Source: Caryophanales bacterium (lineage in GTDB: Bacteria > Bacillota_I > Bacilli_A > RF39 > UBA660). From it: a stretch of 56,458 nt of DNA. Made by a program: the position numbers and the translations under genes. Of this stretch, positions 4,774 to 56,432 are shown one piece after another (position 1 is the first letter of the stretch; each line of letters opens with the position of its first letter). Location of the stretch: positions 1 through 56,458 of the forward strand of contig JAEEKI010000006.1 in NCBI GenBank assembly GCA_016282375.1, read 5' to 3'. Under the pieces are notes generated by a model. It ran no database searches, was not told the origin of the DNA, and saw only the letters and a program-made list of their open reading frames with translations.

Positions 4774-4805
4774 AATCTAATTTCACCTTTCGGCAAAATT
4801 AGATT
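4774..4805 (-). terminator. strong intrinsic terminator after the 4858-6000 gene
   Basis: Ten-base stem AATCTAATTT / AAATTAGATT with a 12-base loop, followed on the minus strand by seven T. It isolates the surface-protein gene from the GDPD gene. Confidence 0.85.
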
Positions 4806-4819
4806 CAAGATATTAAGAT
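4806..4819 (-). repeat. 3' flanking tag, copy 1 (ATCTTAATATCTTG)
   Basis: Fourteen bases, read on the minus strand, 38 bp after the stop codon of the surface-protein gene. An identical copy lies 35 bp after the stop of the related gene at 40628-41743, and similarity continues another 11 bases (23 of 25 in total). The tag is separated from the stop by GC-rich DNA containing the palindrome CTCCGGAG. Its role is unknown. Confidence 0.55.
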
Positions 4820-4820
4820 G

Positions 4821-5060
4821 CCTCCGGAGCGGCCAGCGAGCATGACGACTATCTCAACTAATCCCACGATCCACAATCGGCATGGCCAAGCGAATCGACT
4901 TCACAGCACACCCTCCCAGAGTGATCGCTACAGTTTACATAGCCGTAGGTGTCCACTACACAGCCGAGGTTGCCTACATTGCAGTTAGCGCTGTTGTCGT
5001 TAGCGTCGCAATCATTATTGATATCGACGGTTATTCCCGCATCGATAAACGCTTGGTAAA
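4821..5060. other. GC-rich anomalous segment spanning the 3' end of a surface-protein gene
   Basis: Hand counts give 24/40 GC at 4821-4860, 34/60 at 4861-4920, 30/60 at 4921-4980 and 29/60 at 4981-5040, against 18/60 at 5101-5160 in the same gene. The change is abrupt, near codons for AFIDAGI. In the coding direction the segment uses many NNC codons (GAC, AAC, AGC, TGC, GGC), unlike its neighbours. It encodes the Cys-rich tail and runs about 37 bases past the stop. Recombination with foreign DNA and adenine-targeted diversification are both compatible. Confidence 0.7.
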
Positions 5061-6000
5061 TTGCTTGCTTGGCACTGGCTTGTTGTTCTAATGTTAAAGT
5101 ACTATTTAATGTATGTCCACTTAAGCCATATTGGGTATATGGTTGACTTAAACATATTTCATGTCCCTGAATAGTTCCACATGCATAGTACTCACTACTA
5201 TCTTGCCCTATATATACATTATGTCCTGTTGCTGTTCCACTACTTTGTAATGTTCCTCCGTAATTTGGATGTGTATATAAAGGTTCCATTTGTCCGGTAT
5301 TATCATTCAATGTTGATAGTGCAAACCAGTAACTTGTTGGTCCTGATGGACTTGCTGTTCCTGCTATACATGAGACATTGGCTACCTTAAATTTACCGGC
5401 ATATGTTTTCCCTGATAATGTACTTTGATCTGCATTTACATTATAAAACTTACTTGTGAGTGTCCATACAGCCGTACTTGTTGCACTACCTATTCCATCA
5501 ATTTGTGCACCACTTACAACGGTCGCTGCATAATTCGTATATGTTAAAGTTGATAAATCTGTTTCATTTTTAATATTGTTGGTTCCTTCATTTACATGCG
5601 CATTACTTGCAAGTGTACCTTGAATTACAAACTCATTATCAGTTACTCCACTTGTGTGGGCTAAATATTTATCACTACTTGTCCATTCATAGATAATATC
5701 ATAGGTGCATACCATACTATAATCAGTATTAGGTGTAAAGTTAACCGTTAAAGTTGTATTATTCTCCGCGGCTACATTACCTTGTTTAGCTTCTACCATA
5801 TTTGAGGCCGTGACATTAAGAAGCATTGCTCCACCTAAGGTATCAAACACCATATTATTTTGCTCCGTTACTGTATTGGCATTTACCACATTTGTAATAT
5901 TTAAATTGCCAGTTGCAAAATAGGCGTATGTTGCACCAATTACTACAGCAAGTAATGTAATTATAGCAATTACTATTAAAATGATATTGTTATTTTTCAT
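4858..6000 (-). CDS. SipW-type surface protein, paralogue 2 (long form, GC-rich tail)
   Basis: A 380-residue predicted secreted protein. ATG 6000 follows AGGTGA at 5 bases; the upstream in-frame extension has no such site. Residues 1-35 form a SipW-type signal (MKNNNIILIV to GATYAYFATG). Residues about 36-220 are the family core, with CTYDIIYEW and a closing KVANVSC. Residues about 225-325 are a second domain shared with 25583 and 40628: SYWF, GGTLQSSG, GHNVYIGQ, GHEICLSQPYTQYGLSGHT, ASAKQAIYQAFIDAG. The last 55 residues are Cys-rich (about seven Cys) and diverged. The 3' end is GC-rich (see 4821-5060). It is monocistronic with a strong terminator. The function is not recognised; an adhesin or fibre subunit is inference. 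Confidence 0.75.
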   Translation of the reverse strand: MKNNNIILIVIAIITLLAVVIGATYAYFATGNLNITNVVNANTVTEQNNMVFDTLGGAMLLNVTASNMVEAKQGNVAAENNTTLTVNFTPNTDYSMVCTYDIIYEWTSSDKYLAHTSGVTDNEFVIQGTLASNAHVNEGTNNIKNETDLSTLTYTNYAATVVSGAQIDGIGSATSTAVWTLTSKFYNVNADQSTLSGKTYAGKFKVANVSCIAGTASPSGPTSYWFALSTLNDNTGQMEPLYTHPNYGGTLQSSGTATGHNVYIGQDSSEYYACGTIQGHEICLSQPYTQYGLSGHTLNSTLTLEQQASAKQAIYQAFIDAGITVDINNDCDANDNSANCNVGNLGCVVDTYGYVNCSDHSGRVCCEVDSLGHADCGSWD

Positions 6001-39883: not shown

Positions 39884-39903
39884 CTAACATTCTACAATGT
39901 TAG
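39884..39903 (-). terminator. terminator after the five-gene surface-protein cluster
   Basis: Perfect 8-base stem CTAACATT / AATGTTAG, loop CTAC, followed by eight T on the minus strand. Confidence 0.85.
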
Positions 39904-40504
39904 CTTTAAAAACTGCTTCATAAGTTTTATAATCGTTTATATATTGATAATCATCCTTTAACCACTTAAAGGTTATCTTAGCTTGCCAATAATCAATTTT
40001 TTGATGGTTCTTAGTAGTATTAATAACATGTAAATATTCAGTTGAATTAAAACTAACCGGTATTTCAATATCGCCTGTCAAAGTAGTTATATCCATTTCG
40101 CTAATCACAGGTTCATAATCAACACCATTATCAGATTTAGATACATCCAAAACTAGTTCAGGAATTCCTTCGACAGTATATGAAAAAACTTGTTCTTCAG
40201 GAAGTTTCATCTTTAAAAGATAACAATATTTAGTTTGGGGACTAGTTGTATCCAAGATAACATTCAGACTACCAGTACCTGATACGTCATGACCAACACC
40301 AATCGCAAAATTAGAGGCATCAGCTACAAATTTGGCATTTGTTTGCGCAAATCGTAAAGTATCAACGCCTTTGGAAGTCACGTCAACTTTAAAGGAACCA
40401 TCATACATTTCTTGTACAGAAAAATAAGCGTAGGTTGATAACACTACTGTTAATAATATAGTAATTATAGCAATTACAATTAATATAACATTATTATTTT
40501 TCAT
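39884..40504 (-). CDS. SipW-type surface protein, paralogue 4 (short form)
   Basis: A 206-residue predicted secreted protein. ATG 40504 follows GAGG by 6 bases. The signal MKNNNVILIVIAIITILL to LSTYAYFSV is nearly identical at the start to that of 4858-6000, but the rest is strongly diverged: KGVDTLRFAQ, KYCYLLKMKL, a beta-rich body and an end at KANIVEC. The last residue is Cys, in the position where long forms continue into a second domain. Last gene of the 39884-44386 cluster. Function unknown. Confidence 0.7.
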   Translation of the reverse strand: MKNNNVILIVIAIITILLTVVLSTYAYFSVQEMYDGSFKVDVTSKGVDTLRFAQTNAKFVADASNFAIGVGHDVSGTGSLNVILDTTSPQTKYCYLLKMKLPEEQVFSYTVEGIPELVLDVSKSDNGVDYEPVISEMDITTLTGDIEIPVSFNSTEYLHVINTTKNHQKIDYWQAKITFKWLKDDYQYINDYKTYEAVFKANIVEC

Positions 40505-40578
40505 TTCATTCCTCAACTTTTCTTATTCTTTCTCCCATAAGATTTCCATTATTTTTAAGCTATTCATAAAATTAAATG

Positions 40579-40592
40579 CAAGATATTAAGAT
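40579..40592 (-). repeat. 3' flanking tag, copy 2 (ATCTTAATATCTTG)
   Basis: Identical to the tag at 4806-4819, here 35 bp after the stop of the 40628-41743 gene. It is preceded by a partial direct repeat (ATCTTAAAT) and followed by ATTTAATTTT, also similar to copy 1. No hairpin terminator follows here. Confidence 0.55.
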
Positions 40593-40627
40593 ATTTAAGA
40601 TAATACACACACAACGGGCCACTAGTA

Positions 40628-41743
40628 TTAGCCGTGTACATCACCACATGCTGCCTCATTATTAATTCCAGTAAAACAGTATTCATGTAATGTGTAATCA
40701 ACACTTTCTAAATCACCATCATAATTAATCTGCAAACGTATATAACCTACATTTTCTATATTAATCTCACAAAAGACATTAGTACCATTTTGGGTACAAT
40801 TGTCGTTTAAATTCAATGAAATTCCTGCTTCTGTAAAGACTTGATATAATGCTTGTTTGGCACTTGCTTGTTGAGCACTTGTAAAGTTAGTATTTAAAGT
40901 ATGCCCTTCAAGGCCGTATTGGGTATATGGTTGGCTTAAACATGCTTCATGTCCCTGAATAGTTGCACATGTAAAATATTTACGACTATTTTGGCCTATA
41001 TACACATTATGTCCCGTTGCCGCACCGCTTGTTTGCAAAGTTCCCCCTGTTTCTGGATGTACATAATCGGTACCTTTTTGCGTTGGAAACCAATAACCGG
41101 TTGGATGATATCTCTCAACACCGCAATTAACATTGCCAACACTGACAACACCGCTATACTGCTTGTTCTTTTGACTATTTTGTGACAAATCAAGATTATA
41201 AAAAGCCAGAGTAATTGTATATGTTTGTGTAGTTAAAGTTCCATTTGATGTGATGGTTAAATCACCAGCAATACTACTGCCATTAGTAATGGTATCTATA
41301 TTTGCTTCATTCATAATAGTTGTATTAGAACTATTAACCATTTTTAAAGTTAATTCTTTGGCACTACCTCTTCCACTAGAAGGTGTATATGCTGTAGAGC
41401 TAGTTTCATTCCAAATAAAATTAAATGTACAACTGGCCTGTCTTTCTGCAGATCCGCCTATCATAGTTACGTCAAAAGTTTGAGTAGAGCTTACGGTTGC
41501 TGTCGTGTTATTAGCATCTCCTTGAATCATATCAAAACCAGATACCACTACTCCCAAGTTACCATTAGGGACAGCAGTAAATATAGGTGTGGCTGCATCA
41601 CTAACACCCACAGAGACATTCATTATGGTATTACTTGTTACATTGACAGTAAAAAAAGCATACGTAAAAGAAAATACTGTTGTTAACAATATAAAAATAG
41701 ATAAAAATATAAAAATTATGTTTTCCTTATTCATACTTGTCAT
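40628..41743 (-). CDS. SipW-type surface protein, paralogue 5 (long form)
   Basis: A 371-residue predicted secreted protein; AGGA precedes ATG 41743. The signal (NKENIIFIFLSIF to SFTYAFFTV) varies from the other members, and the core is diverged (ASCTFNFIWNE, closing VGNVNC). The second domain is well conserved: GYWF, GGTLQTSGAATGHNVYIGQN, GHEACLSQPYTQYGLEGHT, ASAKQALYQVFTEAG. The tail has fewer Cys (NCTQNGTNVFC, HEYC, AACG). Together with the core divergence, this makes the second domain the more constant part of the family. Function unknown. Confidence 0.75.
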   Translation of the reverse strand: MTSMNKENIIFIFLSIFILLTTVFSFTYAFFTVNVTSNTIMNVSVGVSDAATPIFTAVPNGNLGVVVSGFDMIQGDANNTTATVSSTQTFDVTMIGGSAERQASCTFNFIWNETSSTAYTPSSGRGSAKELTLKMVNSSNTTIMNEANIDTITNGSSIAGDLTITSNGTLTTQTYTITLAFYNLDLSQNSQKNKQYSGVVSVGNVNCGVERYHPTGYWFPTQKGTDYVHPETGGTLQTSGAATGHNVYIGQNSRKYFTCATIQGHEACLSQPYTQYGLEGHTLNTNFTSAQQASAKQALYQVFTEAGISLNLNDNCTQNGTNVFCEINIENVGYIRLQINYDGDLESVDYTLHEYCFTGINNEAACGDVHG

Positions 41744-41821
41744 CTATATTCCTACTCTTTATTATAATATCACATCTTACTTAATAGTTTCAATCAATAT
41801 TGAAAATTTTTAATAAAAAAA

Positions 41822-41836
41822 CGACCATATTGGTCG
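41822..41836 (-). terminator. terminator after paralogue 6
   Basis: Six-base GC-containing stem CGACCA / TGGTCG with three-base loop, extended by A/T pairs and followed by seven T on the minus strand. Confidence 0.75.
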
Positions 41837-41857
41837 ATTTTATTAATATAAAGATAA

Positions 41858-42514
41858 CTAACAAACTACAGAATCAACATAGAATTTAATCTTCCAAGTT
41901 TTTCCTGCATTACCGCTTTGACTACGATTGAAGTTATAGAATCTTGTAACAATTGTAAAATCTTGAACTGTTGCAGTACTTTCACTATTATTAGTAATAG
42001 TAACACTACCTAAGTCTTGACGTGCAGCAGGATTTGTTGAATCAAAATCAATGAATTGAGTTTCAGAAGCAAGTGTTGTTGAATTTGCATCATTTGTAGT
42101 ATAAGTAACTTCATATGAGAACTCTTTATCAGTTGTTTGAAGTCCTTCAGTTTTTGCATAATCATCACTATTAGTATAATACTCATAGTATACATGATAT
42201 GTACAAGATAAAGACTCAGTCGTACCAGCAGTAAAGTTTACTTTAAAATTTTCAGTTGTTGTTTCAGATGTTGCTGCAAGATTCCCTTGTGCAGTTCCAC
42301 GTGCTTCAACCATGTTTGCTGCTGTTACATTCATAACAATTTCAGCACCAGTAGCAATAAATGAACTACTAGATGAAGCAGTTGTAGCAGTTAAATTAGC
42401 TACGTTTTCTATATTAGTATTACTTGCGAAATATGCAAATGTTGCTCCAATAACAGCAACAAGTAAAGTTGCTACAGCAATTACTGTTAGTAATAACGTA
42501 TTCCTCTTTTCCAC
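41858..42514 (-). CDS. SipW-type surface protein, paralogue 6 (short form, TasA-like)
   Basis: A 218-residue predicted secreted protein with GTG start 42514 after AAAGGAG. The signal EKRNTLLLTVIAVATLLVAV to GATFAYFAS is the most TasA-like in the window. The core has NVTAANMVEARG, SLSCTYHVYYEYY and ends in KIKFYVDSVVC, with Cys as the last residue. It has its own terminator directly after the stop and is Thr/Ser/Asn-rich, like major fibre subunits. I infer that this may be the abundant subunit of the cluster. Confidence 0.72.
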   Translation of the reverse strand: MEKRNTLLLTVIAVATLLVAVIGATFAYFASNTNIENVANLTATTASSSSSFIATGAEIVMNVTAANMVEARGTAQGNLAATSETTTENFKVNFTAGTTESLSCTYHVYYEYYTNSDDYAKTEGLQTTDKEFSYEVTYTTNDANSTTLASETQFIDFDSTNPAARQDLGSVTITNNSESTATVQDFTIVTRFYNFNRSQSGNAGKTWKIKFYVDSVVC

Positions 42515-42595
42515 TATTTGTTATCTCCTTTCTATTATTAATAATAACATATTTAATAATCATTAATCAAGTATTTTCACTAGATTTTTGCTTTT

Positions 42596-43270
42596 TTAAC
42601 AGTTGATATTGGCTGCAGATAAATGGGCCAGTAAACTTTTACCTAACAGACTATTTTGATTTCCCGGTGTGGTATAAAAATTGACAATAAAATTCCATGT
42701 TACTGTTGTTCCTGCAACGGTATTAGAATAAATATTTGCTTCGCTAACAACGGTGGCTTTACGCCCTATTGTACCCTGTGTACCAGTCCAAGATAATGTT
42801 GATAAATCACGTTCTGTAACATTTTTAGATGTATAATCATAACTACTGTACGTATCTCCACTAGCGCTAGCCGTGGCAGCAATAGACAATTCATAAGGAT
42901 AGTTAGCTGTTAGTGACATTGATGGCGATATATACTGGTCTGTACTATCCCATATAAATTGGATATCATATGTACATTCAAGGGCTTGACCCGCAATTGG
43001 TGACTTAAAATTAACAATCAAATTACCTGTACTATTTGCAACAGGTGTACTTGAAGCAACAACCATATTTACCAAACCAACGGATAAATTTATTTGATCA
43101 TTCGAATAAGCTGTAAATGTGGCCCGTGATTCTGGTATACCAGTGTTTAAATTAGCAACGTTAGTTACATTCAAATTACCAACAGTAAAGAAAGCATAGG
43201 TTGCCGAAGTGATTAAAACAAAGACCACTATAATGGTTATAACGTTTAGAATCATACTTTTCTTCTTCAT
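42596..43270 (-). CDS. SipW-type surface protein, paralogue 7 (short form)
   Basis: A 224-residue predicted secreted protein. ATG 43270 is 5 bases after AGGTGA. The signal KKKSMILNVITIIVVFVLI to SATYAFFTVGNLNVTNV resembles the family start; the core has LECTYDIQFIWDSTDQY and ERDLSTLSWTG, and ends HLSAANINC with terminal Cys. It follows the 43280 gene by 9 bp, so the two are co-transcribed. Function unknown. Confidence 0.72.
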   Translation of the reverse strand: MKKKSMILNVITIIVVFVLITSATYAFFTVGNLNVTNVANLNTGIPESRATFTAYSNDQINLSVGLVNMVVASSTPVANSTGNLIVNFKSPIAGQALECTYDIQFIWDSTDQYISPSMSLTANYPYELSIAATASASGDTYSSYDYTSKNVTERDLSTLSWTGTQGTIGRKATVVSEANIYSNTVAGTTVTWNFIVNFYTTPGNQNSLLGKSLLAHLSAANINC

Positions 43271-43279
43271 GAGTCTCAC

Positions 43280-44386
43280 CTACGTTGCCTTAGAAATAAC
43301 CACTTGATTATTGGCTGCTAATTTTAGTTTTATATTTGGTATCGTTGTTAATTCAAAACGGTCAGCAGCATAAACTACATATCCGGCTGGCGTTGTGTAA
43401 GTGCCTGAAGCGGTATGATTTGAATCGTTTGTAAGTGAATTACTTGGGTATTTTAATATTTGATAAACAGTAGTAAATCTAGCATACGCTCGTGTTTGAA
43501 GCCACGATCCAGAAGTATTACTTGTCGTTGATGCAGTATATGGCTGAACAGACCCAGTTGGATAGGTAGCTGTTTGAATTGCTGTACTTAGCGACGTAGA
43601 ATATGTGGTATCACCATTTATAACATTCAAAACCCATCTACCCATTGGCACGTTTGAAAGCGTATATGCTCCATTACTATCAGTGGTGGCCGTTATCATG
43701 CCGTGATTAAGAGAAATTGTAGCTCCGGCAATCGGATTATCCGCAGTATCATACAAAATACCACTTATATTATTAAAGACGGTGTTCTTGATTGGATATT
43801 GATATACTATTACAGCAAAATCAGTAGGATTTCCCTCAAAGACATCAGCGGCTTCAAGATCACCCCATAATTTAATAGCTAATTTTGTACTAGTAGTGGT
43901 AGAATTTAAAATTCCTAAATAAGCTATATAATATGACGTACCATAGTTTTTACTACTGGCAGAAATATGTAAATCAGCTATAGGAGCTGGACCTGCTAGT
44001 GGTGTAGATGATATGTTATTGCTTCCATCAAAACTATATATTGCATATCTTACATATTCCATCGGCAAATTAGTAACACTGACAGAATTTCCAGAATAGC
44101 AAAAATATAAATAATAATAAGTGTCGTAACCTGTTGGCTTATTAATTGTAATGGTGCTATATGTATTTTGGTTCATTCCATCCTCATCACTTAAAAAATA
44201 CATTCCTTGATTTACTAAATTAGTATAAGTAACTGTATAATTCATATTAGTAGTCGTAAGTTGTGCAGTATTACCACTTATTTTACTTCTGGTCATGAAA
44301 GAATAAGACACACTAAAAGAAAGGCTCATAAAAGATACGAGCGCTAAAACGATGACAACAGTAAGCATATGTCTTGTACTCTTCAT
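43280..44386 (-). CDS. secreted protein with carboxypeptidase-regulatory-like domain, first gene of cluster
   Basis: A 368-residue predicted secreted protein. The N-terminal hydrophobic segment ends SFSVSYSFMTRSK, a loose SipW-type site. Residues about 40-205 are beta-rich and unrelated to the other paralogues. From about 207, NISGILYDTADNPIAGATIS and TTDSNGAYTLSNVPMGRWVL match the carboxypeptidase regulatory-like (CnaB-type) beta-sandwich, common in adhesins and fibre accessory proteins. The remaining C-terminus is Thr/Ser-rich with no sortase LPxTG. As first gene of the cluster it may encode the tip or anchor (inference). Confidence 0.7.
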   Translation of the reverse strand: MKSTRHMLTVVIVLALVSFMSLSFSVSYSFMTRSKISGNTAQLTTTNMNYTVTYTNLVNQGMYFLSDEDGMNQNTYSTITINKPTGYDTYYYLYFCYSGNSVSVTNLPMEYVRYAIYSFDGSNNISSTPLAGPAPIADLHISASSKNYGTSYYIAYLGILNSTTTSTKLAIKLWGDLEAADVFEGNPTDFAVIVYQYPIKNTVFNNISGILYDTADNPIAGATISLNHGMITATTDSNGAYTLSNVPMGRWVLNVINGDTTYSTSLSTAIQTATYPTGSVQPYTASTTSNTSGSWLQTRAYARFTTVYQILKYPSNSLTNDSNHTASGTYTTPAGYVVYAADRFELTTIPNIKLKLAANNQVVISKAT

Positions 44387-44441: not shown

Positions 44442-44879
44442 TTAAACAATTTGTGCAATTTTTTTTAATAGTTCAATATTCTTGCTTAAAATCTTAATAA
44501 AATCTTTTAGTAAACTTTGAATATCACCGGCTGATTGATCATATTCTAAATTTTTACTTGTTAAAATACCTATACTTTTGTAACTACCCTCAATCATCAT
44601 TTTGATGATAAGTTTATCATTATCTTCTTTCATAAGTTTCATTTCACTATATAATCCCGAACTAATCTTTGCAAACATATTAATAGGTTTACTTTTTCCG
44701 TGTTCTTTTTTTAGTCTTTTTACAACCTGTTTTAATATTTTTTGATATTGTTTCTTCTCATGTTGTAGTTCTTTTAATAATTTAGGATGTTTTATTTTAT
44801 AAATAACATCATCAATACCAACAATACCCATTTCAGCATTTTGATATAATACATTTAATAAATCAATATTTTTTTTCAT
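44442..44879 (-). CDS. small all-helical protein, unknown (ferritin-like bundle possible)
   Basis: A 145-residue soluble protein, predicted almost entirely helical: four amphipathic helices rich in Lys, Leu, Ile and Glu (IDLLNVLYQNAEMGIVGIDD, ELQHEKKQYQKILKQVVKRL and so on). The length and helix pattern recall the DUF2383-type ferritin-like fold, but no clear metal-ligand set (ExxH) is seen, so this is only a fold guess. GGGTGAT precedes ATG 44879. It follows the RNase J gene by 40 bp and precedes the surface-protein cluster. Confidence 0.55.
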   Translation of the reverse strand: MKKNIDLLNVLYQNAEMGIVGIDDVIYKIKHPKLLKELQHEKKQYQKILKQVVKRLKKEHGKSKPINMFAKISSGLYSEMKLMKEDNDKLIIKMMIEGSYKSIGILTSKNLEYDQSAGDIQSLLKDFIKILSKNIELLKKIAQIV

Positions 44880-56276: not shown

Positions 56277-56352
<76 letters not shown>

Positions 56353-56355
56353 AAA

Positions 56356-56432
56356 TGGCGGTTCCGAAGGGATTTGAACCCTCGATCTTCTGCGTGACAG
56401 GCAGACGTGATAGGCCGCTACACTACGGAACC
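56356..56432 (-). tRNA. tRNA-Asp (GTC)
   Basis: A 77-base tRNA with CCA encoded. Acceptor GGTTCCG / CGGAACC, anticodon loop CTGTCAC with GTC, T-arm GGTTCAAATCC. Confidence 0.95.

Follow-up and report, generated by a model that had tools for sequence, protein, structure and literature searches.

The filaments of Bacillus subtilis (TasA/TapA) and Bacillus cereus (TasA/CalY/CapP) are built from proteins that carry a SipW-type signal with a TYA↓YF-like site, depend on a peptidase of the SipW/ER (endoplasmic reticulum) type, have a beta-sandwich fold with a disordered mature N-terminus, and comprise abundant as well as minor subunits. Here we describe a comparable locus at positions 39884-44386 of contig JAEEKI010000006.1 from Caryophanales bacterium (assembly GCA_016282375.1), together with its paralogues elsewhere in the genome; the window that was analysed is this entire contig (C10) of 56,458 nucleotides. 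The division into abundant and minor subunits would probably apply here as well. In contrast to the TasA systems, the proteins of this locus have a conserved pair of Cys residues, no match to PF12389 and no similarity in the mature sequence; they belong to a set of 55-60 copies with exchangeable C-terminal modules, and in this genus the peptidase is encoded outside the operon.

The second group to be compared consists of the targets of diversity-generating retroelements (DGRs), including BPP-1 Mtd, surface lipoproteins of Legionella and Treponema, and the 15 targets of Thiohalocapsa PB-PSB1. As in these targets, many paralogues of the present family have a 3'-terminal variable region that changes at first and second codon positions (NNC type), conserved columns depleted of A, and a downstream element with a GRNA-loop hairpin. 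Variation by known DGRs is almost confined to codon positions 1 and 2 (PMC10907252), and annotated variable regions in a DGR survey were systematically tied to C-type lectin folds (PMC8144416). Unlike in the known target systems, the assembly yielded no reverse transcriptase and the 85% of it that was scanned no template, there are at least 14 separate target genes, and the variable part belongs to a Cys-rich module whose low-confidence model is not recognised as a C-type lectin.

Resemblance also extends to the mycoplasma families (Vpma, MBA and DUF285 proteins), which share with the present one a small genome, a constant N-terminus with variable C-termini, mosaic paralogues and, in one copy here, a DUF285 module. 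Unlike those families, the proteins have SipW-type rather than lipoprotein signals; no invertase or phase switch was identified, and no search was aimed at one. BspA-type surface proteins have the LRR_5 module that is found in at least four copies of the family, but here the leucine-rich repeats are one of several interchangeable passengers on a shared N-terminal domain.

We propose, with a probability of roughly 0.6, that 39884-44386 represents the conserved core of a modular surface-display system that is processed by SipW and has shuffled and hypermutated ends. If this is true, module shuffling and targeted hypermutation would be united in one surface system of a gut bacterium with a reduced genome. 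Its dispersed target genes would be about as numerous as those of Thiohalocapsa PB-PSB1, for which 15 are reported, on fewer genome bases. The finding also suggests a SipW-type display domain that does not belong to the TasA sequence family.

The locus and its protein family

The genome comprises 1.08 Mb in 24 contigs, is 85% complete and has a contamination estimate of 1%; the named relative found is a sheep-rumen Bacilli metagenome-assembled genome. Comparison within the genus covered ten genomes, and the class sample added 394 others. All eight open reading frames of interest were confirmed on the minus strand of the window. The products of seven of them (P0001-P0007) have a Lys/Asn-rich start, a hydrophobic helix, the signal end (A/S/F)T(Y/F)A(Y/F)F and a closing V/I-x-C, and they have in common a domain of ~190 residues after the signal, here called the N-domain. 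The 'CTY..' motif, originally predicted for all seven, is preserved exactly or almost so in five; in P0005 it reads CTFNFIWN, and in P0004 just the Cys is left (YCYLL).

A profile made from the seven proteins gave 60 matches in the genome, with E values down to 8e-101, and the motif columns are conserved across 105 members, so the shared signature is far beyond chance. The grouping of the seven window proteins into one family was thus borne out, and the family is larger than had been noted. Reading of all loci gave ~55-60 family genes, with a coding total of 66.8 kb (6.2% of the assembly); the gene count is imprecise because 15 of the 48 contig ends cut family genes and the ends overlap by ~127 nt, which points to graph breaks. 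Module A is carried by 27 complete and 7 partial copies, module C by four, C plus A by two, LRR_5 by four and DUF285 by one (the last two by Pfam). No module was recognised by the patterns used in 8 complete and 5 partial copies, one of which has LRR_5 by Pfam. The N-domain family is present in all ten genomes of the genus. With a broader N-domain profile, matches extend across the taxonomic family, and those in other families are nearly all confined to the signal end. Module A also occurs in the genus member G002 and was found in none of the 394 other genomes of the class sample, nor in the phage and plasmid collections searched. Viral contigs contained no relatives of A2 or of P0006.

The stretch 39884-44386 is an operon-like locus conserved in the genus. 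Transcribed from the minus strand, it begins with P0008 (43280-44386), followed by the N-domain-only genes P0007 (42596-43270) and P0006 (41858-42514), a terminator-like stem-loop with a T-run after P0006 (41822-41836), P0005 with an N-domain and module A (40628-41743), and P0004, again N-domain-only (39884-40504). P0004 has orthologues in the genus, and in a sister genus its orthologue adjoins that of P0008. The locus is intact in seven genomes (G000, G002, G003, G004, G005, G007 and G008), where RNase J is followed by a small protein, then by P0008 and three to five N-domain genes; an NAD-dependent epimerase comes last, in most cases after a ZIP-like transporter. In the window the small protein is the syntenic neighbour upstream of P0008, at 44442-44879 on the minus strand, and is DUF2383-like, with a score below the cut-off. 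P0008 is present once in nine genomes of the genus and twice in one. Its product, which the original prediction added to the cluster as a carboxypeptidase-regulatory-like protein, does contain a CarboxypepD_reg domain (E 4.5e-9) and a SipW-like signal (SVSYSFM); its N-terminal part is without family assignment, and no N-domain homology was detected in it. P0008 may be a tip, a base or an assembly factor.

Three further members lie outside the locus, on the same strand. P0001 (3-659) has the signal and the N-domain and lost its 3' end where the contig begins within the gene; 128 nt are common to this end and the start of another contig (C14). P0002 (4858-6021, with a likely ATG start at 6000) and P0003 (25583-26701) each have a signal, an N-domain and module A. 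It is noted that in the locus L200 of a relative (G102, contig C50), N-domain genes alternate with small opposite-strand genes that resemble toxin-antitoxin pairs.

Module shuffling and hypervariable ends of module A

The Cys-rich C-terminal module A, common to the genes at 4858, 25583 and 40628, was overlooked in the original prediction, as were the genome-wide expansion, the module shuffling and the DGR-like hypervariable ends. Besides module A, the N-domain carries LRR_5, DUF285 or an unassigned module C as exchangeable C-terminal parts. No Pfam match was obtained for the three module-A proteins P0002, P0003 and P0005, and the model of module A is mostly below a predicted local distance difference test score (pLDDT) of 70, which gives low confidence for comparison with the C-type lectin fold. 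At the P0005 position, module A is found in the window, module C in G002 and no module in G004 and G005, which indicates module swapping at an orthologous site and upholds the idea of exchangeable decorations.

Distances between DNA sequences of 23 complete paralogues with N-domain and module A were compared by Mantel tests. The two halves of the N-domain are correlated (r=0.50, p=0.001), as are the front and back of module A (r=0.80, p=0.001). No correlation was found between N-domain and module A (r=-0.01, p=0.50) or between signal and N-domain (0.06, p 0.33), from which it follows that signal, N-domain and module A have independent histories. It should be mentioned that the p values of these tests and of the entropy tests below are indicative, because the copies are related, and that both kinds of test were picked after viewing the data and without correction for multiple looks. 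Recombinational shuffling of N-domain and module is highly probable on this evidence. Two further proteins have C plus A behind an unrelated N-terminus, in L099 (8863-11121; signal end SHAYY) and L128, so modules move between display families too.

The last ~50 codons of module A vary much more than the rest, with a mean identity of 31% compared to 61%. In P0002 the DGR-like variable region, whose boundary was set from the alignment, spans 4820-5010 (minus strand) and consists of hypervariable NNC/NNT codons that run past the stop codon (4858-4860) to a downstream element. This element, ATCTTAATATCTTGAATCTAATTTTG at 4794-4819 on the minus strand, resembles an initiation of mutagenic homing (IMH) site; it is an exact match, with 0 expected in shuffles, and a check of the flanks found it downstream of many other module-A genes. 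The end of the element is overlapped by a 9-bp hairpin, AATTTTGCC-GAAA-GGTGAAATT (4779-4800, minus strand), with a GRNA tetraloop that reads GACA, GATA or GAAA among the copies; a terminator role is possible too. In BPP-1-type DGR targets the IMH is followed by a stem of 7-10 bp with a 5'-GRNA loop (PMC3240598), and those GC-rich stems differ from the less GC-rich ones here. Downstream of P0005, a degenerate element (40567-40592, minus strand) has three mismatches and no stable hairpin, and the variable end of P0003 is AT-rich and has no such element.

Codon-position entropies were calculated for 16 copies that have the element or resemble those that do, and the result holds with 14 copies. 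In the variable region they are 0.94, 1.00 and 0.78 for the three positions, compared to 0.37, 0.35 and 0.93 in the N-domain of the same genes, and in 21 of 29 variable codons the first two bases change whereas the third is quiet. The consensus base is A in 2 of 54 conserved columns of the variable region, compared to 28 of 81 just upstream (Fisher p 1.2e-5). The GC content of the variable stretch is 0.53 in copies with the element and 0.38 in those without (p 6e-7), and the latter have an intermediate, eroded variability pattern. In pairwise comparisons of the variable stretch with the N-domain, third-position identity is higher in 37 of 45 pairs and first- and second-position identity lower in 43 of 45. 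Such a combination, with third positions more alike and the others less alike, suggests that the copies share a template and that the N-domains are near silent-site saturation. Thus 14 or more copies, among them the gene at 4858 in the window, show what is expected of DGR targets: adenine-type variability, with NNY codons and conserved non-A columns, and an IMH-like element with a GRNA-loop hairpin downstream. Judged from this pattern, a DGR-type origin of the variable ends is likely, and a DGR still active in this lineage somewhat less probable than not.

In a separate observation, two family genes at contig ends (L098 on C16 and L099 on C17) lead into one identical variable segment of 127 nt, which extends into a third contig (L213 on C13), so the two loci may share one variable sequence. 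Viral contigs contained no IMH-like element, and two 18-base patterns from the variable region gave five chance hits among them, the best of which (E 0.007) lies in an unrelated frame.

SipW processing, fold and the abundant subunit

Six hits above the TIGR02228 cut-off represent SipW/ER-type signal peptidases in the genome, and none lies inside the window, as had been expected of a peptidase acting from elsewhere. Such peptidases are present in all ten genomes of the genus. In the sister genus G418, one strand (L205) carries SipW, a protein of 406 aa, P0008, a P0004-like gene, ZIP and the epimerase, and this SipW was confirmed by TIGR02228 (2.7e-23). In G339 (L203), a repeat protein comes after an N-domain gene and before SipW. 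With SipW close to family genes in both, the link is genetic and goes beyond signal resemblance. The family signal profile matches TasA-like proteins (probability 94, E 1e-7). A DNA search of the genome with TIGR04088 (cut-off 19) gave two places above the cut-off, 19.8 and 19.3, one of them the P0006 signal, with the rest below; the P0006 protein itself scores 18.8, and the P0004-like protein of the SipW-linked locus in G418 passes with 19.3. SipW-type processing of the family is therefore very likely, as far as signals and gene neighbourhoods can tell. LPxTG, as expected of a sortase pilus, was found in none of the eight window translations.

The partners of the six peptidases include operons with other short secreted proteins, and two lineages, the C23 type and the lone C14 type, seem from size and score to recur across the genus. 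Two of the SipW-type peptidases (L003, C15:36775; L004, C18:58926) have a long multi-pass part fused to them at the N-terminus, which gives a total of ~380 aa. Their operons also encode small secreted proteins and make up another SipW system of this genome.

Structure predictions were based on shallow alignments of eight rows (the window proteins and L115). The model of P0006 (pLDDT 70.7, pTM 0.63) has a ten-strand beta-sandwich after the signal helix. Residues 29-47, right after the expected cut, are unstructured; the corresponding segment is the donor strand in TasA (PMC9674648). A fold search with this model returned mixed jelly-rolls with Z up to 6.5, including the cannula protein CanA (6.4) and the pilin CsuA/B (5.8), and TasA is not listed. 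We claim no fold kinship, since the best Z values of 6.5 and 6.9 fall among unrelated folds, and a sequence search of solved structures gave nothing significant. The TasA comparison proposed in the original prediction stands for the signal: detectable TasA kinship, by sequence profile, is confined to the signal peptide, and the N-terminal part of P0008 gave no profile signal with TasA. The system may work like TasA, yet it is not classed as TasA.

P0006 has a codon adaptation to ribosomal genes, taken as a proxy for expression, of 0.729, the highest among the family members scored. Ribosomal genes range from 0.60 to 0.83 and module-bearing copies from 0.50 to 0.64; sampled other window genes have a mean of 0.637 and a maximum of 0.708. 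The gene also has a strong Shine-Dalgarno sequence, a promoter-like site and the terminator-like stem-loop, its signal is near-identical in other species, and six such genes are in tandem in G006. Ribosome-like codon usage, its own terminator and tandem arrays of its type in relatives support P0006 as the abundant subunit, in agreement with the original choice of 41858 as major subunit. That it is the main subunit of a polymer is somewhat more probable than not, and the polymer may take the form of a fibre.

Alternative explanations and proposed model

Several results weigh against the display system proposed above. A reverse transcriptase (RVT_1, PF00078) was absent from the 85%-complete assembly, and no template repeat was found by nhmmer and AAC density in 920 kb, or 85% of the assembly. 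P0003 and P0005 lack the DGR signature, simple pooled dN/dS (nonsynonymous over synonymous change), used as a test for positive selection, is on average below 1 everywhere, and the downstream hairpin could be a mere terminator. On the TasA side, the family profile aligned with seven TasA-like proteins by hhalign at a probability of 0.1 without the signal and of 94 with it, all in the signal; PF12389 (camelysin, Peptidase_M73) has 0 matches in the genome, the fold-search Z (best 6.5) is at the level of common arrangements, and in this genus the cluster has no SipW gene linked to it. Considering that the assembly is ~85% complete, the DGR machinery may be unassembled, carried by an unbinned element, or lost; diversified targets beside incomplete DGR machinery are on record (PMC10907252). 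With reverse transcriptase and template not found, we claim a DGR-type pattern rather than DGR membership. Ordinary diversifying selection with gene conversion among paralogues, as in antigenic-variation cassettes without a retroelement, would account for these absences, the many paralogues with evident recombination and the identical variable segment at two contig ends. However, it would neither keep third bases constant while first and second bases vary nor strip A from conserved columns, and it leaves the shared downstream element and hairpin unexplained; we consider it unlikely.

The family might instead consist of individual adhesins, secreted or anchored in the membrane, which have an export or anchor domain in common and never polymerise, their N-terminal helix perhaps remaining uncut. 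The missing TasA homology in the mature part and TIGR04088 scores at or below the cut-off for most members agree with this, and the signal helix could serve as an anchor. The match of the signal profile to TasA-like signals and the six SipW peptidases with linkage in relatives speak against it, and one highly codon-adapted subunit with low partners and tandem arrays of subunits with near-identical signals fit a polymer better, which makes this reading possible but doubtful. An ordinary TasA/camelysin biofilm fibre locus would have the same signal type and the scheme of major plus minor subunits (PMC9674648, PMC13082335), but it is improbable given the absence of PF12389 and of mature-domain similarity and given modules, copy number and a Cys pair unlike TasA. 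That the copy number is an artefact of assembly or strain mixture is very improbable: the broken contig ends and their overlaps would suit it, but the full-length copies with N-domain and module A that were compared differ by ~33% on average in N-domain DNA, copies occur at many separate places on large contigs, and contamination is low.

In the modular display system that we favour, a SipW/ER-type peptidase would probably cut each member at TYA↓YF or ATFA↓YF and leave a beta-sandwich N-domain whose mature N-terminus is flexible. The highly expressed P0006 would probably make up the bulk of a surface polymer or coat, to which P0004, P0007 and P0008 would contribute as minor partners in the core, while low-expressed paralogues may display exchangeable C-terminal modules on the same N-domain, reshuffled by recombination. 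Adenine-directed mutagenesis from a shared template would have diversified the final ~50 codons of 14 or more module-A copies, with the conserved downstream element and its hairpin as the putative target site. As these tips bear the fingerprint of targeted hypermutation, the bacterium may continually vary its surface display, and ligand binding or evasion of immunity or phages might be the function. The fullest version, a combinatorial display in a small, uncultured lineage of gut-type Bacilli, is put forward tentatively: dozens of shuffled minor subunits would be carried by a SipW-processed polymer of one abundant subunit, and a DGR acting in trans would hypermutate their tips in at least 14 separate genes, in a Cys-rich domain that is not a C-type lectin.

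Two minor observations are added. In the LepB-like signal peptidase L007 (C19:8822), the RVVGLPG motif follows LIG instead of the LIIK found in its paralogue L008, and the usual catalytic Lys may therefore be absent. Two tandem tRNA genes occupy positions 56280-56432, at the window's right end.

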